Position numbers and translations under genes: made by a program. This document shows positions 20,294-27,236 of a DNA stretch of 64,000 bases, one piece after another; position 1 is the first letter of the stretch, and each line of letters starts with the position of its first letter. This DNA comes from Bacteroidota bacterium (GTDB taxonomy: Bacteria; Bacteroidota; Bacteroidia; Chitinophagales; Chitinophagaceae): positions 1-64,000 of the forward strand of contig JAUZOE010000009.1 in the NCBI GenBank assembly GCA_030706605.1. Reading direction: 5' to 3'. The notes under the pieces are model-generated. The model did not search any database. It was not told where the DNA came from and worked only from the letters and a program-made list of their open reading frames with translations.

Positions 20294-21577
20294 TTAGCCA
20301 AAAACCATTACATTCAGTTCCTTTAAATCATTAAAAAATCCGGGATAAGATTTTCTTACCGCTTCTGCATTTTCAATGATCATGTCTCCATTGGCGCCCA
20401 AGGCTGCTACAGCACATGCCATTGCAATACGGTGATCATTATGTGAAGAGACTGTAGTTCCCTTTATCTGATTACCGCCTTTTATAGTCATGATGTCATC
20501 ATCCAAAAGAATATCCACATTCATCTTTTTAAATTCATCCTTTAAAGTAAGTGCCCTGTTACTTTCTTTATGAAGAAGCCTATTCACGCCTTTAATAGTA
20601 GTAGTTCCGGTGCAATAAGACGCCAATGCCACAAGTGGTGGAAAAAGATCAGGGCAATGAGTAGCATCAAAATTAAATGCTTTCAGCTGATTCCTCTTGA
20701 CTGTGATTTCACCCTCGTGAATACTTACTTCTGCGCCGGAATCATAAATGGCTTCCATTATATTTTTATCCCCCTGGGACGAATTTAAATCAGCACCTAT
20801 TAAAGTAACCTGCCCGGATATGGCACCAGCAACAGCCAGGAAAGCTGCATTGCTCCAATCACCCTCTACTGTATATTTTATACTATGGCTCTGAAGAGGA
20901 TCACGCGGATGCAATGTAAATATTTCATAATTTTCATTTTCCATATGAAACCCAAAATAATTTAAAATTGAAATAGTAAGATCAATATAAGGTCTGCTGG
21001 AAAGATTTTTTACGCGAATGCTAACAGGAGACTTACACGCTTTTGCAAAGGCAAAAAGTAGTCCGGTTAAGAACTGGGAACTCAGGGCACCATCAACAAT
21101 AATTTCTTTCGGATGCAATGGCCCTTTTAGAGTAACCGGCAATTTACCACCGTTGGAATTGATCTCCACATCCAGTTTTGGAAATATTTCATCAAAAAAG
21201 TCCATGGGTCTTTTTAAAATACTTCCTTCTCCGGTAAAAGTGATTTCATAATTAAACAGAGCAGCAATGGGAGCAAACATTCTCATAGATAGCCCGCTTT
21301 CGCCACAACTCACCATTACATTTTTATTGGGAAAGGCAGAATGAAAAATCTGGTCAGATGAAGTAATGGTCATTTTGTTATTCACCGTAGTAATGGTAGC
21401 GCCAAGTTGAGTAATAATATTCATAGCCGCCTTCTCATCATTACTATTTCCAAAATTATCAATTACTGTAGTTCCCGGAGTGATAAGCGCTGCCGCACAT
21501 GCACGCTGCATAGAACTTTTAGAAGGTGGCACTTTTATTTTTCCTGATATGGAAGAAGAAGAAATAGTTTTATTCAT
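20294..21577 (-). CDS. aroA: 3-phosphoshikimate 1-carboxyvinyltransferase (EPSP synthase)
   Basis: This 427-residue enzyme transfers enolpyruvyl from PEP to shikimate-3-phosphate, the sixth shikimate-pathway step. Landmarks are PPSKSSMQRACAA near the start, SGLSMRMFAPIAAL, GEGSILKRPMDFF, ALSSQFLTGLLFA and the C-terminal DHRIAMACAVAAL. It is the last gene of the aromatic operon, 68 bases after aroB, and converges on the acnA terminator. In this family's longer bacterial form the early motif is usually GDKSISHR; the PPSKSSMQR version here is the Bacteroidota variant. Confidence 0.92.
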   Translation of the reverse strand: MNKTISSSSISGKIKVPPSKSSMQRACAAALITPGTTVIDNFGNSNDEKAAMNIITQLGATITTVNNKMTITSSDQIFHSAFPNKNVMVSCGESGLSMRMFAPIAALFNYEITFTGEGSILKRPMDFFDEIFPKLDVEINSNGGKLPVTLKGPLHPKEIIVDGALSSQFLTGLLFAFAKACKSPVSIRVKNLSSRPYIDLTISILNYFGFHMENENYEIFTLHPRDPLQSHSIKYTVEGDWSNAAFLAVAGAISGQVTLIGADLNSSQGDKNIMEAIYDSGAEVSIHEGEITVKRNQLKAFNFDATHCPDLFPPLVALASYCTGTTTIKGVNRLLHKESNRALTLKDEFKKMNVDILLDDDIMTIKGGNQIKGTTVSSHNDHRIAMACAVAALGANGDMIIENAEAVRKSYPGFFNDLKELNVMVFG

Positions 21578-21645
21578 AAAATGATTAAGAATTAAAAAAA
21601 AATATCAGCTAAAAAGAGCTGACAAGCTTCATGGTGAGAATGTCA

Positions 21646-22689
21646 TTAAAAAAGTTCATTAAAAATTTCCCGCAAATCACTCAACGAAATCTTTTTGACA
21701 GCGCCTTTTCCAATTGCATCCAATACTACAAAACTCATATCAGTTCCTGATTTCTTTTTGTCATGCTGAAGAATTTCCCAGGTTTTTTCTTTGTCGAAAT
21801 TAAGAGCAACAGGAAGCTTATATTTTGAAAGTAATGCCTCTATTTTTTGGCCATCCGCCACAGAAAATCCATTTACCTTTTGTGAAATAATACAGGCTGC
21901 TACCATACCAATACTTATTGCATGGCCATGAGCAAGTTTACTGACATTCTCAATCGCGTGGCCAATGGTATGCCCAAAATTCAACAATTTCCTTTCGCCT
22001 GTTTCATACTCATCATTTGATACAACATTGTATTTAATATCAACGTTTTTTTCAATTAGTTTACCGGTAAATTCATGAGAATTTTGAAATTTATCTAAAG
22101 AATTTTCTTCCAGGAAATCAAACATTTCTTTATCCTTAATGCAGGCATGTTTTATAATTTCAGCAAAACCATTAATCCACTCTGCATCAGGCAAAGTTTC
22201 TAAAAAAGAATAATCGTATAATAAAAATTCAGGATGCCGGATGATTCCTACAAGGTTTTTATAAACTCCTACATCGATGCCGTTTTTCCCCCCAATACTT
22301 GCATCCACCATAGCGAGAATACTGGTAGGAACAAAACCGAATTTGACTCCCCGCATATAAATGGAGGCAACAAATCCGGTAATATCAGTAACCACTCCCC
22401 CTCCTATTCCTACTATGAAACTTTGCCGGTCTGCTTGTAATTCTATCAATTGATTAATTACTTCGGCAACCGCTTTTTGATTTTTAAATGGTTCACCCGC
22501 CTTAATTACGATGGTTTGCCATCCCGAAAATTTCTCTGATTGCTTTGCAAAAATATTTTCATCAGTAATAAAAATAGTATTCTCCCTTTTCACCAAATTC
22601 TCAATTTCCGAAAATTCCGCATCAAAAAAGCATTCTATTGTTTTTCCAGAAAACTGGTATTTCTTTGAAGTCGTTTTTTTATTAGTCAT
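21646..22689 (-). CDS. aroB: 3-dehydroquinate synthase
   Basis: This 347-residue NAD- and zinc-dependent enzyme closes DAHP to 3-dehydroquinate. It shows the NAD-binding glycine cluster GIGGGVVTDITGFVAS, the segment VPTSILAMVDASIGGKNGID, and metal-ligand histidines in NFGHTIGHAIE and HGHAISIGM. The start overlaps the end of the DAHP synthase gene by eight bases, so the two are translationally coupled. It is fifth in the operon. Confidence 0.94.
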   Translation of the reverse strand: MTNKKTTSKKYQFSGKTIECFFDAEFSEIENLVKRENTIFITDENIFAKQSEKFSGWQTIVIKAGEPFKNQKAVAEVINQLIELQADRQSFIVGIGGGVVTDITGFVASIYMRGVKFGFVPTSILAMVDASIGGKNGIDVGVYKNLVGIIRHPEFLLYDYSFLETLPDAEWINGFAEIIKHACIKDKEMFDFLEENSLDKFQNSHEFTGKLIEKNVDIKYNVVSNDEYETGERKLLNFGHTIGHAIENVSKLAHGHAISIGMVAACIISQKVNGFSVADGQKIEALLSKYKLPVALNFDKEKTWEILQHDKKKSGTDMSFVVLDAIGKGAVKKISLSDLREIFNELF

Positions 22690-23749
22690 TCATTATTTTA
22701 TTCTGGTGACTGATACTTTCTAAATGAACTGCATCAAAATATTTGGTGATAAAATCTTTACTTAAACCAAGAAGTTCACCTTTTACAAATGCTTTGGCTA
22801 ATATTTCATTCCAGCGATTAGTTTGCAGGATGGTAATATTGTTTTCTCTTTTATATGTACCTATTTTATCAGCAATTTTCATGCGTTGACCAATCAACGT
22901 TAATAACTCATCGTCAATATGATTAATCTGCTCTCTGAGTTTGGCTAAAGCAGTTAAAAATTCTTTTTTATCTGAATTTTCAAAACGCCAAACCAAATCA
23001 TTAAGCATTTCGGCAAGGCGCTCAGGTGTTATTTGTTGTTTGGCATCGCTCCATGCATTGTCAGGATCTATATGAGATTCAATCATCAATCCATCAAAAT
23101 CCAGGTCAATACTTTTTTGTGCAACATTCTGTAACCCTGTCCTGTTACCACATATATGAGAAGGATCACAAATAAGCAGCATTTCCGGAAACCTTCTTTT
23201 CATTTCAATCGGTAAATGCCACATAGGTGCATTACGGAATTCTGTATTTCCGTAATTTGAAAATCCCCTGTGAATCATGCCTATATCTTTCATACCGACT
23301 TTTTGTAAGCGTTCAATACCACCACACCATAATTCCAAATCAGGATTAATAGGATTTTTTATAAGAACCGGAACATCTACGCCTCTCAATGCATCACAAA
23401 CTTCCTGCACACTGAAAGGATTCACAGTTGTTCTGGCGCCAATCCATAACATATCTACATCAAATTGCAATGCATCCTCAACATGTTTAGCAGTTGCTAC
23501 TTCCACAGTAATTGGCAATCCTGTTGCTTTTTTAGCAGAAGCCATCCATGGCAATGCTTTGGTACCAATACCTTCAAACATCCCGGGCTTGGTTCTGGGT
23601 TTCCATATTCCGGCACGAAGCATATCCACTTTTCCTGTGGCTGCCAGCCTGGTAGCAGTTTCCAGCACCTGCTCTTCAGTTTCTGCACTGCATGGGCCAC
23701 TGATAATTATTGGACGCTTGTTCCAAATCTTTTGCATTGAATCGTTCAT
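22682..23749 (-). CDS. aroF: Bifunctional DAHP synthase / chorismate mutase
   Basis: This 355-residue fusion has an N-terminal type I-beta DAHP synthase (about 1-260; IISGPCSAETEEQV, DMLRAGIWKPRTKPG, PVLIKNPINPD, LICDPSHICGNR) that condenses PEP and erythrose-4-phosphate, and a C-terminal helical chorismate mutase of the AroQ type (about 265-355; LREQINHIDDELLTLIGQRM). The arrangement is typical of Bacteroidota and lets the mutase sense or channel towards prephenate. It lies 71 bases after tyrA, in a gap that holds a candidate internal promoter. Confidence 0.92.
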   Translation of the reverse strand: MNDSMQKIWNKRPIIISGPCSAETEEQVLETATRLAATGKVDMLRAGIWKPRTKPGMFEGIGTKALPWMASAKKATGLPITVEVATAKHVEDALQFDVDMLWIGARTTVNPFSVQEVCDALRGVDVPVLIKNPINPDLELWCGGIERLQKVGMKDIGMIHRGFSNYGNTEFRNAPMWHLPIEMKRRFPEMLLICDPSHICGNRTGLQNVAQKSIDLDFDGLMIESHIDPDNAWSDAKQQITPERLAEMLNDLVWRFENSDKKEFLTALAKLREQINHIDDELLTLIGQRMKIADKIGTYKRENNITILQTNRWNEILAKAFVKGELLGLSKDFITKYFDAVHLESISHQNKIMND

Positions 23750-23820: not shown

Positions 23821-24660
23821 TCATTTTAAAATCCTTTTAATTTTATTCGAATTTTCTATCAATTCTGTTAGGTATTGATAATTTTCTTTTTCCAGGCAAC
23901 TTTTAAATTTTCTTAATTGAGAAATATGTTCGTTTAAAACATCCAGGACATTTTCCCTGTTCTGTTGAAAAATGGGTACCCACATGTCCGGATTGCTTTT
24001 AGCCAAACGAACCGTACTTTCAAATCCGCCACTGGCCATTCCAAAAATAGTTCCTTCTTCTTTTTCTTTTTCTAAAACTGTATTTGCCAAAGCAAAAGAA
24101 GTGATGTGTGAAATATGACTTACATAAGCAGCATGTACGTCATGCGCAACAGAATCCATATACAAGATATTCATCCCAAAAGCACGATACATTTTTTCTA
24201 CCCATTCAACAGCATCAGGATCACTATCTTCTTTATCACAAATTACAACTGCATTTCCGGCAAAAGCACCTGTCTCTGCTGCTTTCGGACCACTAAACTC
24301 TGTACCCCACATAGGATGTGTCGCCACAAATCTTTTTCTCTTTTTACTCTTATTAGCTGTTGTACATATTGCATTTTTTGTGGAACCTACATCTATTACT
24401 ATCTGCTGATCAGTTTGATCGAGAATTGAGACAATCATTTTTTCAGCCACACTTACAGGCACTGCAAGAATAATCAAATCAGATTTTGAAATGGCTTCAT
24501 CCAGGTTATCTACTTCATCTACCAGGCCAAGTTTCAAAGCTTCTTCTGCATGTTGTTTATTGCTTTCAACGCCAATGATTTTTGCAGCAAGTTTTTTTTC
24601 TCTCAAAGCGATAGCCATTGAGCCGCCTATTAAACCTGTTCCTATGATTGCTACATTCAT
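23821..24660 (-). CDS. tyrA: Prephenate dehydrogenase
   Basis: The 279-residue protein has the NAD-binding glycine motif at its very start (IIGTGLIGGSMAIALRE) and the catalytic-region motifs THPMWGTEFSGP and HDVHAAYVSHISHITSFALA, whose histidines act on prephenate. It oxidatively decarboxylates prephenate to 4-hydroxyphenylpyruvate for tyrosine. No ACT domain is attached, so feedback by tyrosine through that route is not expected. It is third in the operon, 10 bases after the aminotransferase gene. Confidence 0.92.
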   Translation of the reverse strand: MNVAIIGTGLIGGSMAIALREKKLAAKIIGVESNKQHAEEALKLGLVDEVDNLDEAISKSDLIILAVPVSVAEKMIVSILDQTDQQIVIDVGSTKNAICTTANKSKKRKRFVATHPMWGTEFSGPKAAETGAFAGNAVVICDKEDSDPDAVEWVEKMYRAFGMNILYMDSVAHDVHAAYVSHISHITSFALANTVLEKEKEEGTIFGMASGGFESTVRLAKSNPDMWVPIFQQNRENVLDVLNEHISQLRKFKSCLEKENYQYLTELIENSNKIKRILK

Positions 24661-24670
24661 AATTTTATTC

Positions 24671-25867
24671 TTAATTTTTTATTCTTTCAATTGCCTCGCC
24701 AATTTTTTCTTCACTTGTGCACAGGCTCACTCTTATATATTGATCACCTGCACTGCCAAATATTCCACCGGGCGTAATGAATACATTTGACTCATTTAAT
24801 ACTTTATCACTCAATTCATATCCGTCCTTAAATGTGGCAGGGATGGAAGCCCACACAAAAAGCCCGACCTGCTTATCACTAAAGGAACAATTCAACAAAC
24901 GTAATAACTCAAATACTTTTTTTCTTCTTTTCTTATAAACGTTATTGACAGCATCTATCCAGTCCTGATCAAGATCCAGGGCCTTAGCAGCCGCGAGTTG
25001 CAAAGGCAAAAACATTCCACTATCCATATTACTTTTGAAACGCAGTACTTCATTAATTCTTTCTTTTGCCCCTAAGAGCATTCCTATTCTCCAACCAGCC
25101 ATATTATGGCTTTTACTTAAAGAATTTAATTCAATCACCACCTCTTTTGCTCCTTCAAAACTTAATAAACTCATCGGTTTATCATTCAATATAAAACTAT
25201 ATGGATTGTCATGACAAATAAGGATGCTGTGCTTTTTGGCAAAGGTTATCAATTGTTTAAACATTTCCTCAGTTGGCAATTGCCCGGTAGGCATCTGTGG
25301 ATAATTGACAAACATTAAACGAGCTTTTTTCAAATCATTTTTTTCCAGTTCTGTAAAATCAGGAAACCAGTTATTCTCCTCTTTCAGCGTGTAGGCCTGC
25401 ACCTGTGCCCCGGCAATTTTTGCAGCACTTTTGTAAGTAGGATACCCCGGATTGGGAATTAAAACCACATCTCCTTCATTAATATAAGTCATACAAATAT
25501 GCATAATCCCTTCTTTACTTCCCATTAATGGAAGAATCTCTGTATCGGCATTCAACTCCACCTTATACCATTTTTGATACCATTTTGAAATGGCATTTCT
25601 AAGAACAGGACTTCCTTTATAACTCTGGTATCCATGCTGACCAGGCTTTGCCGCTTCTTCCTGCAATGTTTTAATAACATCCGAATGCGGTGGCAGATCC
25701 GGGCTTCCAATCCCCAAATTGATTACTTGTTTCCCGGCTTTATTCATCTCATCAATCTGTCCTAATTTGCGGGAAAAATAATATTCTTCAATTCCATTCA
25801 AACGTACAGAAGTTTCAGCTAATTTTCCTGAGGCGCTATTATTATTGCTATCTGTTATACTACTCAT
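24671..25867 (-). CDS. Class I/II PLP-dependent aminotransferase (aromatic/prephenate type)
   Basis: The protein (398 residues from the chosen start) is a fold-type I aminotransferase. The PLP lysine is in LSKSHNMAGWRIG, with NLGIGSPDLPP near the N-terminus and IPNPGYPTYKSAA before the cofactor site. The open frame continues 23 codons further upstream and would overlap pheA; the ATG at 25867, 13 bases after the pheA stop, aligns better with the family start. Operon position between pheA and tyrA implies transamination of phenylpyruvate, 4-hydroxyphenylpyruvate or prephenate. It also resembles LL-diaminopimelate aminotransferases, so exact substrate is uncertain. Confidence 0.82.
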   Translation of the reverse strand: MSSITDSNNNSASGKLAETSVRLNGIEEYYFSRKLGQIDEMNKAGKQVINLGIGSPDLPPHSDVIKTLQEEAAKPGQHGYQSYKGSPVLRNAISKWYQKWYKVELNADTEILPLMGSKEGIMHICMTYINEGDVVLIPNPGYPTYKSAAKIAGAQVQAYTLKEENNWFPDFTELEKNDLKKARLMFVNYPQMPTGQLPTEEMFKQLITFAKKHSILICHDNPYSFILNDKPMSLLSFEGAKEVVIELNSLSKSHNMAGWRIGMLLGAKERINEVLRFKSNMDSGMFLPLQLAAAKALDLDQDWIDAVNNVYKKRRKKVFELLRLLNCSFSDKQVGLFVWASIPATFKDGYELSDKVLNESNVFITPGGIFGSAGDQYIRVSLCTSEEKIGEAIERIKN

Positions 25868-25880
25868 TTTTATTGTTTGC

Positions 25881-26723
25881 TTATTTATTTTTTTGATTAG
25901 ATTTCCCATTTTTATATACGCCATATACTTTGACATTCGCGGTAAATGGCTCTATATTTTTTAATACATTATGCAATTGCTCGAGGTTGGTAAATTCACA
26001 ATCAGCATGAAAAGAGTATTTCCAATCGCTTCCAGGAATTGGCATAGATTGCAACTTACTCAGGTTCACATCTCCTTCTGAAATTTTTGTAAGCACTTTC
26101 GCAAGACTCCCTTTTGAGTGATCTGTCTGAAAAATAAGAGACGCTTTGTCGGCACCTTCAATTTCAACCGCAGATTCAGCGTTTTGCAATACCCAAAACC
26201 GGGTGTAATTATTTTTTTGAGTATGTATATTAGGTGCAATGATATCTAACTGAAATAAGTCAGCAGCGAGTTCTCCGGCAATAGCCGCTATATGCTTGCT
26301 TTTATGTTGATGAACATGTTGCGCACTAAGTGCCGTATCTTCTGTTTCAATTAATTTCCAGTTATGGCTTTCCAAAAAATCCATGCATTGCAATAATGCC
26401 ATGGGATGAGAATGAACTTCCCGGATATCAGAAAGGGAAACGCCTGGATTGACTAAAAGATTTTGATCAATCTGAAGATAAATTTCTCCAACGATCTTTA
26501 AATTACTTTTTTGTATCAGGTTATAATTGGGCAAAATGCTTCCGGCGATGGAATTTTCAATGGCCATAATGCCACCATCACTTTGATTACAATCTCCTGC
26601 GATCTTTACTACTTCACTAAAAGTGGAACAGCAAATTACTTCTACATCATTTCCAAAAAATTTCCTTGCGGCGGCCTGGTGAAAACTCCCTTTGAACCCT
26701 TGTATGGCTATTTTCTTTTTCAT
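25881..26723 (-). CDS. pheA: Prephenate dehydratase with ACT domain
   Basis: This 280-residue enzyme converts prephenate to phenylpyruvate. The catalytic domain (about 1-180) starts IAIQGFKGSFHQAAARKFFG and includes IENSIAGSILPNYNLI and the NNYTRFWVL segment with the catalytic threonine. Residues about 190-280 form an ACT domain (KASLIFQTDHSKGSLAKVL) that normally binds phenylalanine for feedback. The usual ESRP-like turn reads QSMPIPG here. It is the first structural gene of the operon and sits 16 bases after the T-run of the attenuator terminator. Confidence 0.93.
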   Translation of the reverse strand: MKKKIAIQGFKGSFHQAAARKFFGNDVEVICCSTFSEVVKIAGDCNQSDGGIMAIENSIAGSILPNYNLIQKSNLKIVGEIYLQIDQNLLVNPGVSLSDIREVHSHPMALLQCMDFLESHNWKLIETEDTALSAQHVHQHKSKHIAAIAGELAADLFQLDIIAPNIHTQKNNYTRFWVLQNAESAVEIEGADKASLIFQTDHSKGSLAKVLTKISEGDVNLSKLQSMPIPGSDWKYSFHADCEFTNLEQLHNVLKNIEPFTANVKVYGVYKNGKSNQKNK

Positions 26724-26741
26724 ATTATGTTATAAACCAAA

Positions 26742-26765
26742 AATCCCGGCATTTTTGCCGGGATT
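26742..26765 (-). terminator. Attenuator terminator in the pheA leader
   Basis: On the minus strand AATCCCGGCA and TGCCGGGATT form a perfect 10-base-pair, GC-rich stem with an AAAA loop, followed by further T residues to give a run of five. It lies between the leader peptide gene and pheA, 16 bases before the pheA start, in the transcribed leader rather than after any gene. The upstream heptamer CCGGGAT at 26805-26811 can pair with ATCCCGG of its 5' arm (26758-26764) and so prevent it from forming. Confidence 0.8.
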
Positions 26766-26793
26766 CTTTTATCGTTATCTGTTTGTTTCAGTT

Positions 26794-26868
26794 TTAACAA
26801 AGGCATCCCGGACTATTTCTAAAATAGTAGCTAAAATAAAACCCGGTATTTGCTTTTGCGAATGTCAT
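26794..26868 (-). CDS. Phe/Tyr-rich leader peptide of the aromatic operon attenuator
   Basis: The minus strand encodes a 24-residue peptide, MTFAKANTGF then YFSYYFRNSPGCLC, starting at an ATG at 26868. Seven of its residues are Phe or Tyr, six of them in the run F-Y-F-S-Y-Y-F at codons 10-16. The start lies eight bases after an ideal -7 element. The last control codons overlap a hairpin arm (ACTATTT, 26822-26828) whose partner AAATAGT (26812-26818) adjoins the CCGGGAT heptamer. A ribosome waiting for charged Phe- or Tyr-tRNA would free that heptamer for antiterminator pairing; one that reaches the stop codon would cover it. Function is inferred from this layout. Confidence 0.8.
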   Translation of the reverse strand: MTFAKANTGFYFSYYFRNSPGCLC

Positions 26869-26875
26869 TATTTTT

Positions 26876-26907
26876 CAAAAGTAAGATATGGCAATGAAAT
26901 GAACAAA
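26876..26907 (-). promoter_or_regulatory. Promoter of the aromatic amino acid operon
   Basis: On the minus strand TTTG (26904-26907), a 20-base spacer and TACTTTTG (26876-26883) match the Bacteroidota -33/-7 consensus in both elements and spacing. Transcription would start within a few bases of the leader-peptide ATG at 26868, so the leader would be almost leaderless. Confidence 0.75.
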
Positions 26908-26980: not shown

Positions 26981-27035
26981 CTCTTAGATTGCCAGCCAAA
27001 TAAAAAATTTCAGGCAAAAATAATACCGTAAGATA

Positions 27036-27236
27036 TTATTTCTTTGTAGTATCTGCACTCATTTTAGTAGTATCTGCACTCATCTTAGCAGTAGTGTCGG
27101 CACTCATTTTACTCATAGTGTCAGTTGAAGCAGGTGCGGCAGTTGTAGTATCTGTAGTAGCTTCAGTAGAAGAAGAACCACTGTTACATGCTACAAAAAA
27201 GGCAGAAACGGTTAAAACGAGCAATAATTTTTTCAT
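27036..27236 (-). CDS. Small lipoprotein with KMSADTT repeats
   Basis: This 66-residue protein has a type II signal peptide with lipobox FVAC (cysteine at 17) and a mature part of about 49 residues that is almost entirely Ser, Thr, Ala, Asp and Lys. The segment KMSADTT (or AKMSADTT) occurs three times in tandem near the C-terminus. It has no recognisable domain and is probably a disordered, membrane-tethered peptide. It is divergent from the ECF sigma factor gene across 139 bases that contain an inverted repeat. Repeat number could vary between strains. Confidence 0.75.
   Translation of the reverse strand: MKKLLLVLTVSAFFVACNSGSSSTEATTDTTTAAPASTDTMSKMSADTTAKMSADTTKMSADTTKK

Follow-up and report, generated by a model that had tools for sequence, protein, structure and literature searches.

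The closest described systems are the leaders of enterobacterial pheA and trp operons, which the locus reported here resembles in its short leader peptide, its place ahead of the first gene and its stalling logic (scheme in PMC1183508, as far as its accessible part goes). Within the same phylum, leader-peptide attenuation has been proposed in general terms for F. psychrophilum, the accessible part of that account naming neither a phe/tyr operon nor segments (PMC9723704); sORFs of B. thetaiotaomicron are called “reminiscent of leader peptides” in the accessible text of a second study (PMC7366714); and the Bacteroid-trp motif RF01692 (Weinberg 2010) is a candidate cis-regulatory RNA of Bacteroidetes that, on the accessible text, is tied to trp genes by its name (PMC2864571). 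In another phylum, the attenuator transcript of Sinorhizobium meliloti trpLE(G) starts at the ATG of the leader ORF, but there it serves a trp operon and Trp rather than Phe/Tyr (PMC7298713, accessible part).

A preliminary description of the present locus, made from sequence alone, knew of no precedent in the phylum. This stands for a Phe/Tyr attenuator, of which we found no description for Bacteroidota in the open-access literature (most subscription journals lie outside it), and falls for leader-peptide attenuation as such, on the accessible parts of two papers (PMC9723704, PMC2864571). The Phe/Tyr attenuator is a well-supported case of a known kind of control, which earlier work has already proposed in outline for the phylum. 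The abstract of Vitreschak et al. 2004 reportedly mentions Bacteroidetes.

In searches against Rfam, neither the window leader nor any of 37 further loci, from relatives or from the window's own genome, reached the gathering score of a family, and the same holds for the T-box in the window and the 37 further loci and for Bacteroid-trp RF01692 in the window; over the whole window, tRNA alone reaches gathering. The Phe_leader family RF01859 scores 22.7 bits on the window leader against a gathering score of 55 (E 0.15), and the sRNA family STnc430 outscores it at the same place. Membership of the leader in an Rfam family is ruled out on these gathering scores.

Our analysis leads us to propose, with a probability of about 0.9, that this leader acts by ribosome-mediated transcription attenuation, with the charging of tRNA-Phe and tRNA-Tyr as its signal and the operon pheA–aminotransferase–tyrA–DAHPS/CM–aroB–aroA as its target.

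The pheA leader and its operon

The window, i.e. the whole stretch of 64,000 nt that was analysed, belongs to a 4.27-Mb assembly of 71 contigs; the nearest titled relatives of its PheA are from Chitinophagaceae, including Ginsengibacter hankyongi (75% identity in PheA). The features of the leader and of the operon are as follows.

26904–26907, minus strand: presumed −33 promoter element TTTG, from the sequence, with a 20-nt spacer to the −7 box
26876–26883, minus strand: −7 promoter box TACTTTTG (TAnnTTTG), 7 nt ahead of the leader ATG
26794–26868, minus strand: leader peptide ORF MTFAKANTGFYFSYYFRNSPGCLC and its stop; 24 codons, ATG at 26868, stop at 26796–26794
26842–26859, minus strand: segment 1 (leader codons 3–9), which provides the 5′ arm in the 1:2 stem; −14.4 kcal/mol when paired with segment 2
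26812–26828, minus strand: apical hairpin over the last control codons, ACTATTT (26828–26822) with AAATAGT (26818–26812)
26789–26813, minus strand: segment 2, 5′ side of the antiterminator; 2:3 duplex −18.0 kcal/mol, with covariation
26757–26781, minus strand: segment 3, which supplies the 3′ side of the antiterminator and also the terminator's 5′ arm, with AUCCCGG at 26764–26758
26740–26767, minus strand: intrinsic terminator hairpin (3:4), then TGGTTTAT; 10–12 pairs, from a minus-strand script and covariation
25881–26723, minus strand: pheA, prephenate dehydratase (Pfam PF00800; NF008865 under its cut-off)
24671–25936, minus strand: class I/II aminotransferase (LL-DAP/aspartate, DapL/AspC-like), from profile matches
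23821–24660, minus strand: tyrA, prephenate dehydrogenase (NF006307 above cut-off)
22682–23749, minus strand: DAHP synthase–chorismate mutase fusion (PF00793 and PF01817)
21646–22689, minus strand: aroB, 3-dehydroquinate synthase (TIGR01357 above cut-off)
20294–21577, minus strand: aroA, EPSP synthase (TIGR01356 above cut-off)

The coordinates, promoter and 24-codon leader given in the preliminary description all agree with the sequence base for base, and so do its control codons, F Y F S Y Y F, at codons 10–16 of the window leader. The TTTG is taken to be the −33 element by the −33 consensus; across the leaders, a spacer of 19–20 nt from TTG to the box is the commonest. The −7 box TAnnTTTG is quoted in the F. 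psychrophilum study (PMC9723704, accessible part).

The leader stop is followed after 26 nt by a GC-rich hairpin that ends 16 nt before the pheA ATG at 26723. The 10-pair GC-rich terminator predicted at that distance was recovered on the minus strand with 12 pairs by our script: the 10-pair form spans 26742–26765, and the 12-pair form spans 26740–26767. A terminator scanner ranked the palindrome as its top terminator-like match, yet listed it on the plus strand only. The U-tract of the window is interrupted by GG and is partly used in the stem (TGGTTTAT, TTTTTGGTTT). Farther upstream lies a 66-aa lipoprotein-like ORF with ADTTKMS repeats (27036–27236, minus strand), which contains a 21–24 bp tandem repeat (27046–27111); a terminator-like hairpin seen by eye 3′ of it, near 26981–26961, would separate this ORF from the leader.

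Further pairings can be drawn in the window. Segment 2 consists of CCGGGAT (26811–26805), UUGUUA (26800–26795, overlapping the stop codon) and CUG (26791–26789). CCGGGAT is exactly complementary, as had been claimed, to ATCCCGG in the 5′ arm of the terminator (26764–26758), and UUGUUA forms a second antiterminator helix with UAACGA (26777–26772). In the 1:2 pairing, codons 3–9 pair with codons 20–25 (GCAAA..GCA with UGC..UUUGU), which places the control codons in the loop. The window leader as a whole folds with a z-score of −2.55, one of 200 shuffles being equally stable.

The six-gene operon, described beforehand as pheA-tyrA-aroF-aroB-aroA, is confirmed by Pfam and NCBIfam profiles, its DAHP synthase being a chorismate mutase fusion; the aminotransferase reaches no NCBIfam cut-off among its best 25 of 70 matches. 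The six genes occur in this order on one strand at 58 of 80 loci, and the remaining 22 carry a leading part of that order. A terminator-like hairpin with a T run lies between aroB and aroA in the window (21603–21624, minus strand) and may partly uncouple aroA in this genome; of 58 relatives, one has a hairpin in that gap, and this terminator is ruled out as part of the switch.

Conservation and covariation among relatives

A PheA scan of GTDB contigs returned 276 relatives, of which the best 80 were used, giving 81 loci with the window; two whose upstream DNA is cut by a contig end were dropped from the leader counts, leaving 79 with at least 300 nt upstream. A leader was defined as an ATG ORF of 8–36 codons with at least six Phe/Tyr in eight residues, and its terminator had to lie 5–75 nt after the leader stop. 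Among the window and these best 80 of 276 relatives, all 79 loci with enough upstream DNA carry a Phe/Tyr-rich leader ORF, and the script found a terminator after it at 77; at the other two the terminator is visible by eye. By contrast, the regions of 756 control ORFs from the same loci (at least 200 aa, first ATG) gave one leader ORF, and three arose when the 79 upstream regions were shuffled by dinucleotides 790 times in all; none of these had a terminator. The PheA matches of eleven loci contain internal stops, which are probably the gene's own stop within an extended match; three of these loci belong to one genome, where the match is split into three pieces.

The two loci missed by the script were left out of the folding, duplex, promoter and alignment sets, which thus comprise 77 loci. 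Phe makes up 21.7% and Tyr 14.6% of the 1,996 leader residues, 36% together, and eight leaders contain a Trp. By their ends, the leaders fall into group I (PG..C, 31 loci, including the window), group II (..LLL.., 16), group III (RVVF-like, 17) and others (13); the last were left out of the three alignments, which hold 31, 16 and 17 loci. Many leaders start with a recurrent AKAY/AKANT stretch, the F/Y block differs in length and order between loci, and the alignments are conserved in the F/Y-rich frame and in the pairing regions.

Side-by-side sequences of part of the loci suggest four segments. Segment 1 is formed by leader codons 3–9 and segment 2 by the last leader codons and the stop; the two terminator arms give segment 3 (5′ arm, with its upstream flank) and segment 4 (3′ arm). 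The 1:2 pairing joins AAAGCA-like with UGCUUU-like sequences in group II and many of group I, and GCAAAUACA-like with UGUAUUUGC-like sequences in group III. The 2:3 pairing joins CCGGGA with UCCCGG, and in groups I and II it has an outer helix, UGUUAA:UUAACA or UGUUGA:UCAACA, so that in group I the leader stop codon is itself part of the antiterminator. The stop-codon pair of group I is AU at 17 loci and GC at six (UAA versus UGA stops), UA at one and unpaired at seven; the equivalent column of group II, which lies within the coding part, is GC at nine and AU at seven. The antiterminator first proposed is therefore right in its CCGGGAT:ATCCCGG core and was drawn too short, for it lacked this second helix, which uses the leader stop codon in many relatives.

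Compensatory changes were counted as double-changed cells, with the caveat that related rows may exceed shuffles without any structure: for 2:3, there are 16 against 5.2 in shuffles in group I (31 loci; reached in 0 of 500), 13 against 5.4 in group II (16 loci; 0 of 500) and 4 against 0.9 in group III (17 loci; 2 of 500); for 3:4, counted in group I, 10 against 2.1 (0 of 500); and for 1:2, 9 against 3.9 in group III (1 of 500), 13 against 8.6 in group I (25 of 500) and no double change in group II, in which 93% of cells pair. Slid registers of 1:2 in group I give 15 double-changed cells at +1 and 13 at +3, against 13 in the native register. Other measures of 2:3 are less telling: in group I, neither the count of double-changed pairs (70/500; up to seven in slid registers against five) nor the pair types (77/500) stand out, and the same is true in group II (330/500 and 500/500). 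Alignment by MAFFT places the second antiterminator helix of the window one column off, and it is mostly counted as unpaired.

Sliding one partner by 1–3 columns lowers the paired cells of 2:3 from 80–97% to at most 53%, those of 3:4 from 92% to at most 57%, and those of 1:2 from 68% to at most 51% in group I, from 88% to at most 60% in group III and from 93% to at most 58% in group II, in registers that were picked by eye (columns from the window and relatives for group I, L037 for III, L017 for II), a choice that favours the named register over slid ones. RNAalifold on the 31 group I loci recovered the terminator and no other helix, and the helices were accordingly tested singly as named structures.

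Duplex energies against letter shuffles give a mean z of −6.13 for 3:4 (75 of 77 loci below −2), −5.11 for 2:3 (74 of 77) and −1.65 for 1:2 (26 of 77), versus 0.05 for the 1:3 control, which should not pair (5 of 77). When partners were swapped between unlike loci, the loci with no more than 5% of swaps as good as the native pair numbered 55 of 77 for 3:4, 23 for 2:3, 12 for 1:2 and 3 for the 1:3 control, with median shares of equally good swaps of 0%, 12.5%, 21% and 53.5%. The 2:3 and 3:4 helices are thus well supported and 1:2 less so, its covariation being clear in one of the three groups (III) only. Conservation in relatives of both the leader peptide and a CCGGGAT:ATCCCGG-type pairing had been named as the test of the locus; both are conserved, with covariation, which supports the attenuator reading.

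The first hairpin of the preliminary description needs revision. A local hairpin like ACTATTT:AAATAGT recurs at 46 of 74 loci (no more than 5% of shuffles as stable; three further loci were dropped from this test), with 16% of shuffles as stable in the window itself. The proposed CCGG:CCGG contact, which would join the CCGG core to the last part of segment 1, was found at 3 of 74 loci, of which the window is one (4.5% of shuffles as good), and is ruled out as a general first hairpin; the main competitor of the antiterminator is a longer stem, the pairing of codons 3–9 with codons 20–25, whose covariation is weak in group I, to which the window belongs.

At 63 of the 77 loci, the 60 nt that precede the leader ATG contain an exact TAnnTTTG; because the ATG follows such an exact box by 4–12 nt at 61 of them, the leader transcript is probably near-leaderless and, if transcription starts a few nucleotides after the −7 box, would have almost no 5′ UTR. 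Six loci have a one-mismatch box (four at 7–12 nt from the ATG), and eight have none, five of these being second leaders of Chitinophaga tandem pairs. For comparison, the box occurs in 439 of 7,700 letter shuffles and within 100 nt of 123 of 867 ORFs of at least 200 aa (crude starts, pheA included), in 24 of these within 12 nt. The near-leaderless arrangement is not general: the first leaders of five Chitinophaga loci lie 19–32 nt from the box, and 17 of 18 leaders with an exact box from other families lie 16–50 nt from it. Leaderless mRNAs amount to 5.5% in F. psychrophilum (PMC9723704), and about 3.7% of 5′ UTRs in B. thetaiotaomicron are shorter than 10 nt (PMC7366714), both figures from the accessible parts of these papers.

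Folding competition and alternative readings

The analysis demonstrates the parts and their conservation, the covariation of the 2:3 and 3:4 helices and, by computation, the competition between folds; where transcription starts, that the leader is translated, that transcripts terminate in the cell and that Phe and Tyr supply has an effect are what we infer. In the proposed mechanism, RNA polymerase would start just upstream of the leader ATG. When Phe or Tyr is short, the ribosome would stall in the F/Y block and cover segment 1; segment 2 (CCGGGAT to the stop codon) would then be free to pair with segment 3, the terminator would be blocked and the operon transcribed. When both amino acids are plentiful, the ribosome would clear the F/Y block, segment 2 would be sequestered, either in the 1:2 stem or under a ribosome at the stop, and the 3:4 terminator would form, ending transcription 16 nt before pheA.

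We folded the 77 leaders through the terminator's 5′ arm with ribosome footprints masked; group means are given below in the order of groups I, II, III and others. Before segment 3 exists, the pair probability of 1:2 is 0.77, 0.83, 0.93 and 0.48. With the first control codon in the A site, 0.88, 0.89, 0.93 and 0.77 of arm 1 is covered, which fits the claim that stalling at the aromatic codons covers the first hairpin arm (77–93% of arm 1 as group means in the model). When ribosomes occupy the control codons, segment 3 pairs with upstream sequence at a probability of 0.87, 0.90, 0.92 and 0.87, and with 1:2 forced this falls to 0.24, 0.23, 0.19 and 0.18; in this folding model, control-codon stalling versus forced 1:2 thus behaves as the textbook switch. 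At equilibrium without a ribosome 2:3 wins (0.88, 0.89, 0.88 and 0.85), so termination needs 1:2 to be formed first and held.

The converse step, in which a ribosome that has read to the stop covers CCGGGAT, is borne out only in part by folding. A ribosome placed at the stop, its footprint reaching 13 nt upstream, lowers 2:3 clearly in group I (0.50) and in the others (0.47) but hardly in groups II and III (0.86 and 0.83), where the drop needs a footprint of 17–21 nt upstream; at 21 nt the values are 0.48, 0.51, 0.16 and 0.41. In the window itself, the 5′ arm stays paired at 0.79 at all three footprints, perhaps owing to a second CCGGG (26846–26842) that can pair with arm 3. The ribosome-at-stop step may be leaky here rather than wrong, because in the E. 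coli trp leader ribosomes that leave the stop codon too early, when segment IV is yet to become available, are described as a source of basal read-through (PMC1183508, accessible part).

Three other explanations deserve consideration. Were the locus a plain upstream terminator behind a chance hydrophobic mini-ORF, its hairpin would set a constant level of read-through, and an intrinsic terminator by itself would lower expression; however, leader ORF and terminator occur together at 77 of 79 loci as against 0 of 756 control ORFs, and the antiterminator, which would be useless in that reading, covaries in all three groups, which makes this explanation very improbable. The strength of 2:3 even without a ribosome implies that another switch could act on the same helices, the leader RNA sensing a non-ribosome signal (as a riboswitch, a T-box or a protein-bound antiterminator) with the peptide secondary; yet the window leader and the 37 loci give no Rfam gathering match, conservation resides in the F/Y-rich frame together with the pairing regions, and trpE and hisG of the same genome have Trp- and His-rich leaders. 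We therefore give such a signal hardly any credence.

TnaC and SecM exemplify nascent-peptide arrest, in which the peptide itself rather than the codon–tRNA supply stalls the ribosome. Leaders this dense in Phe/Tyr, often with an AKAY/AKANT start, would suit such arrest, but the F/Y block varies in length and order by locus, the conserved N- and C-terminal residues coincide with the RNA pairing segments, and Trp and His versions exist; we regard arrest as very unlikely. The attenuator that reads the charging of tRNA-Phe and tRNA-Tyr is the reading that we prefer.

Reach of the leaders and relation to known attenuators

Leaders with at least five F/Y in eight residues precede 32 of 57 pheA loci of other families in the class Bacteroidia, a sample from which four own-family loci were excluded and one partial match is absent, and 29 of these 32 are followed by a terminator. 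In these 29, the duplex z is below −2 at 25 loci for 2:3, six for 1:2 and one for the 1:3 control. By family label, the leader is present at 13 of 14 loci of f16 and 5 of 5 of f14, and absent from 6 of 6 of f54 and 2 of 2 of f45; outside the class, it was found at none of the 28 loci examined, i.e. the best-scoring 30 less two that belong to the class. Tandem attenuators precede pheA at five Chitinophaga loci and at two further loci (L162 and L175). The first Chitinophaga leader ends in F-W-Y-Q and one more residue and so also contains a Trp codon.

In the window genome, trpE is preceded by the leader MKINNTYNSWWHTIS, with two Trp codons and then a terminator (L199, reverse complement, 0-based 1362–1472), and hisG by the His-rich leader MKQTIHIHHHHLLPIGKPC, again with a terminator (L200, reverse complement, 0-based 1244–1355); both ATGs lie 8–9 nt after a one-mismatch −7 box, as judged by eye. 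At the thresholds of the script, no leader with terminator was found before three ilvD-like and two homoserine dehydrogenase genes of this genome. The Trp- and His-rich leaders point to a strategy of general use, of which the pheA leader would be one instance.

More tentatively, and with the odds in our view against it, these leaders may form a Bacteroidia family of attenuators that read Phe and Tyr for the whole aromatic pathway, in most of the nearer relatives through a (near-)leaderless peptide that would report leaderless initiation as well as tRNA charging, with two stacked in Chitinophaga, the first leader farther from the box. For Bacteroidota, the locus offers a concrete regulator of aromatic amino-acid synthesis whose segments are defined and whose leader stop codon covaries with the bases it pairs with; if the mechanism is true, transcription–translation coupling in this phylum would be tight enough for the position of a ribosome to decide termination.

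In its architecture, the leader is like the enterobacterial pheA and trp leaders: the control codons lie between segments 1 and 2, 2:3 is the antiterminator and 3:4 the terminator. It differs from them in mixing Phe and Tyr codons and in preceding pheA, tyrA and common-pathway genes together. Enterobacterial leaders have a Shine–Dalgarno sequence, whereas there is hardly room for one in the window, because the leader ATG lies 7 nt after the −7 box; Shine–Dalgarno sequences are said, in the accessible part of the F. psychrophilum study, to be absent in the phylum (PMC9723704).
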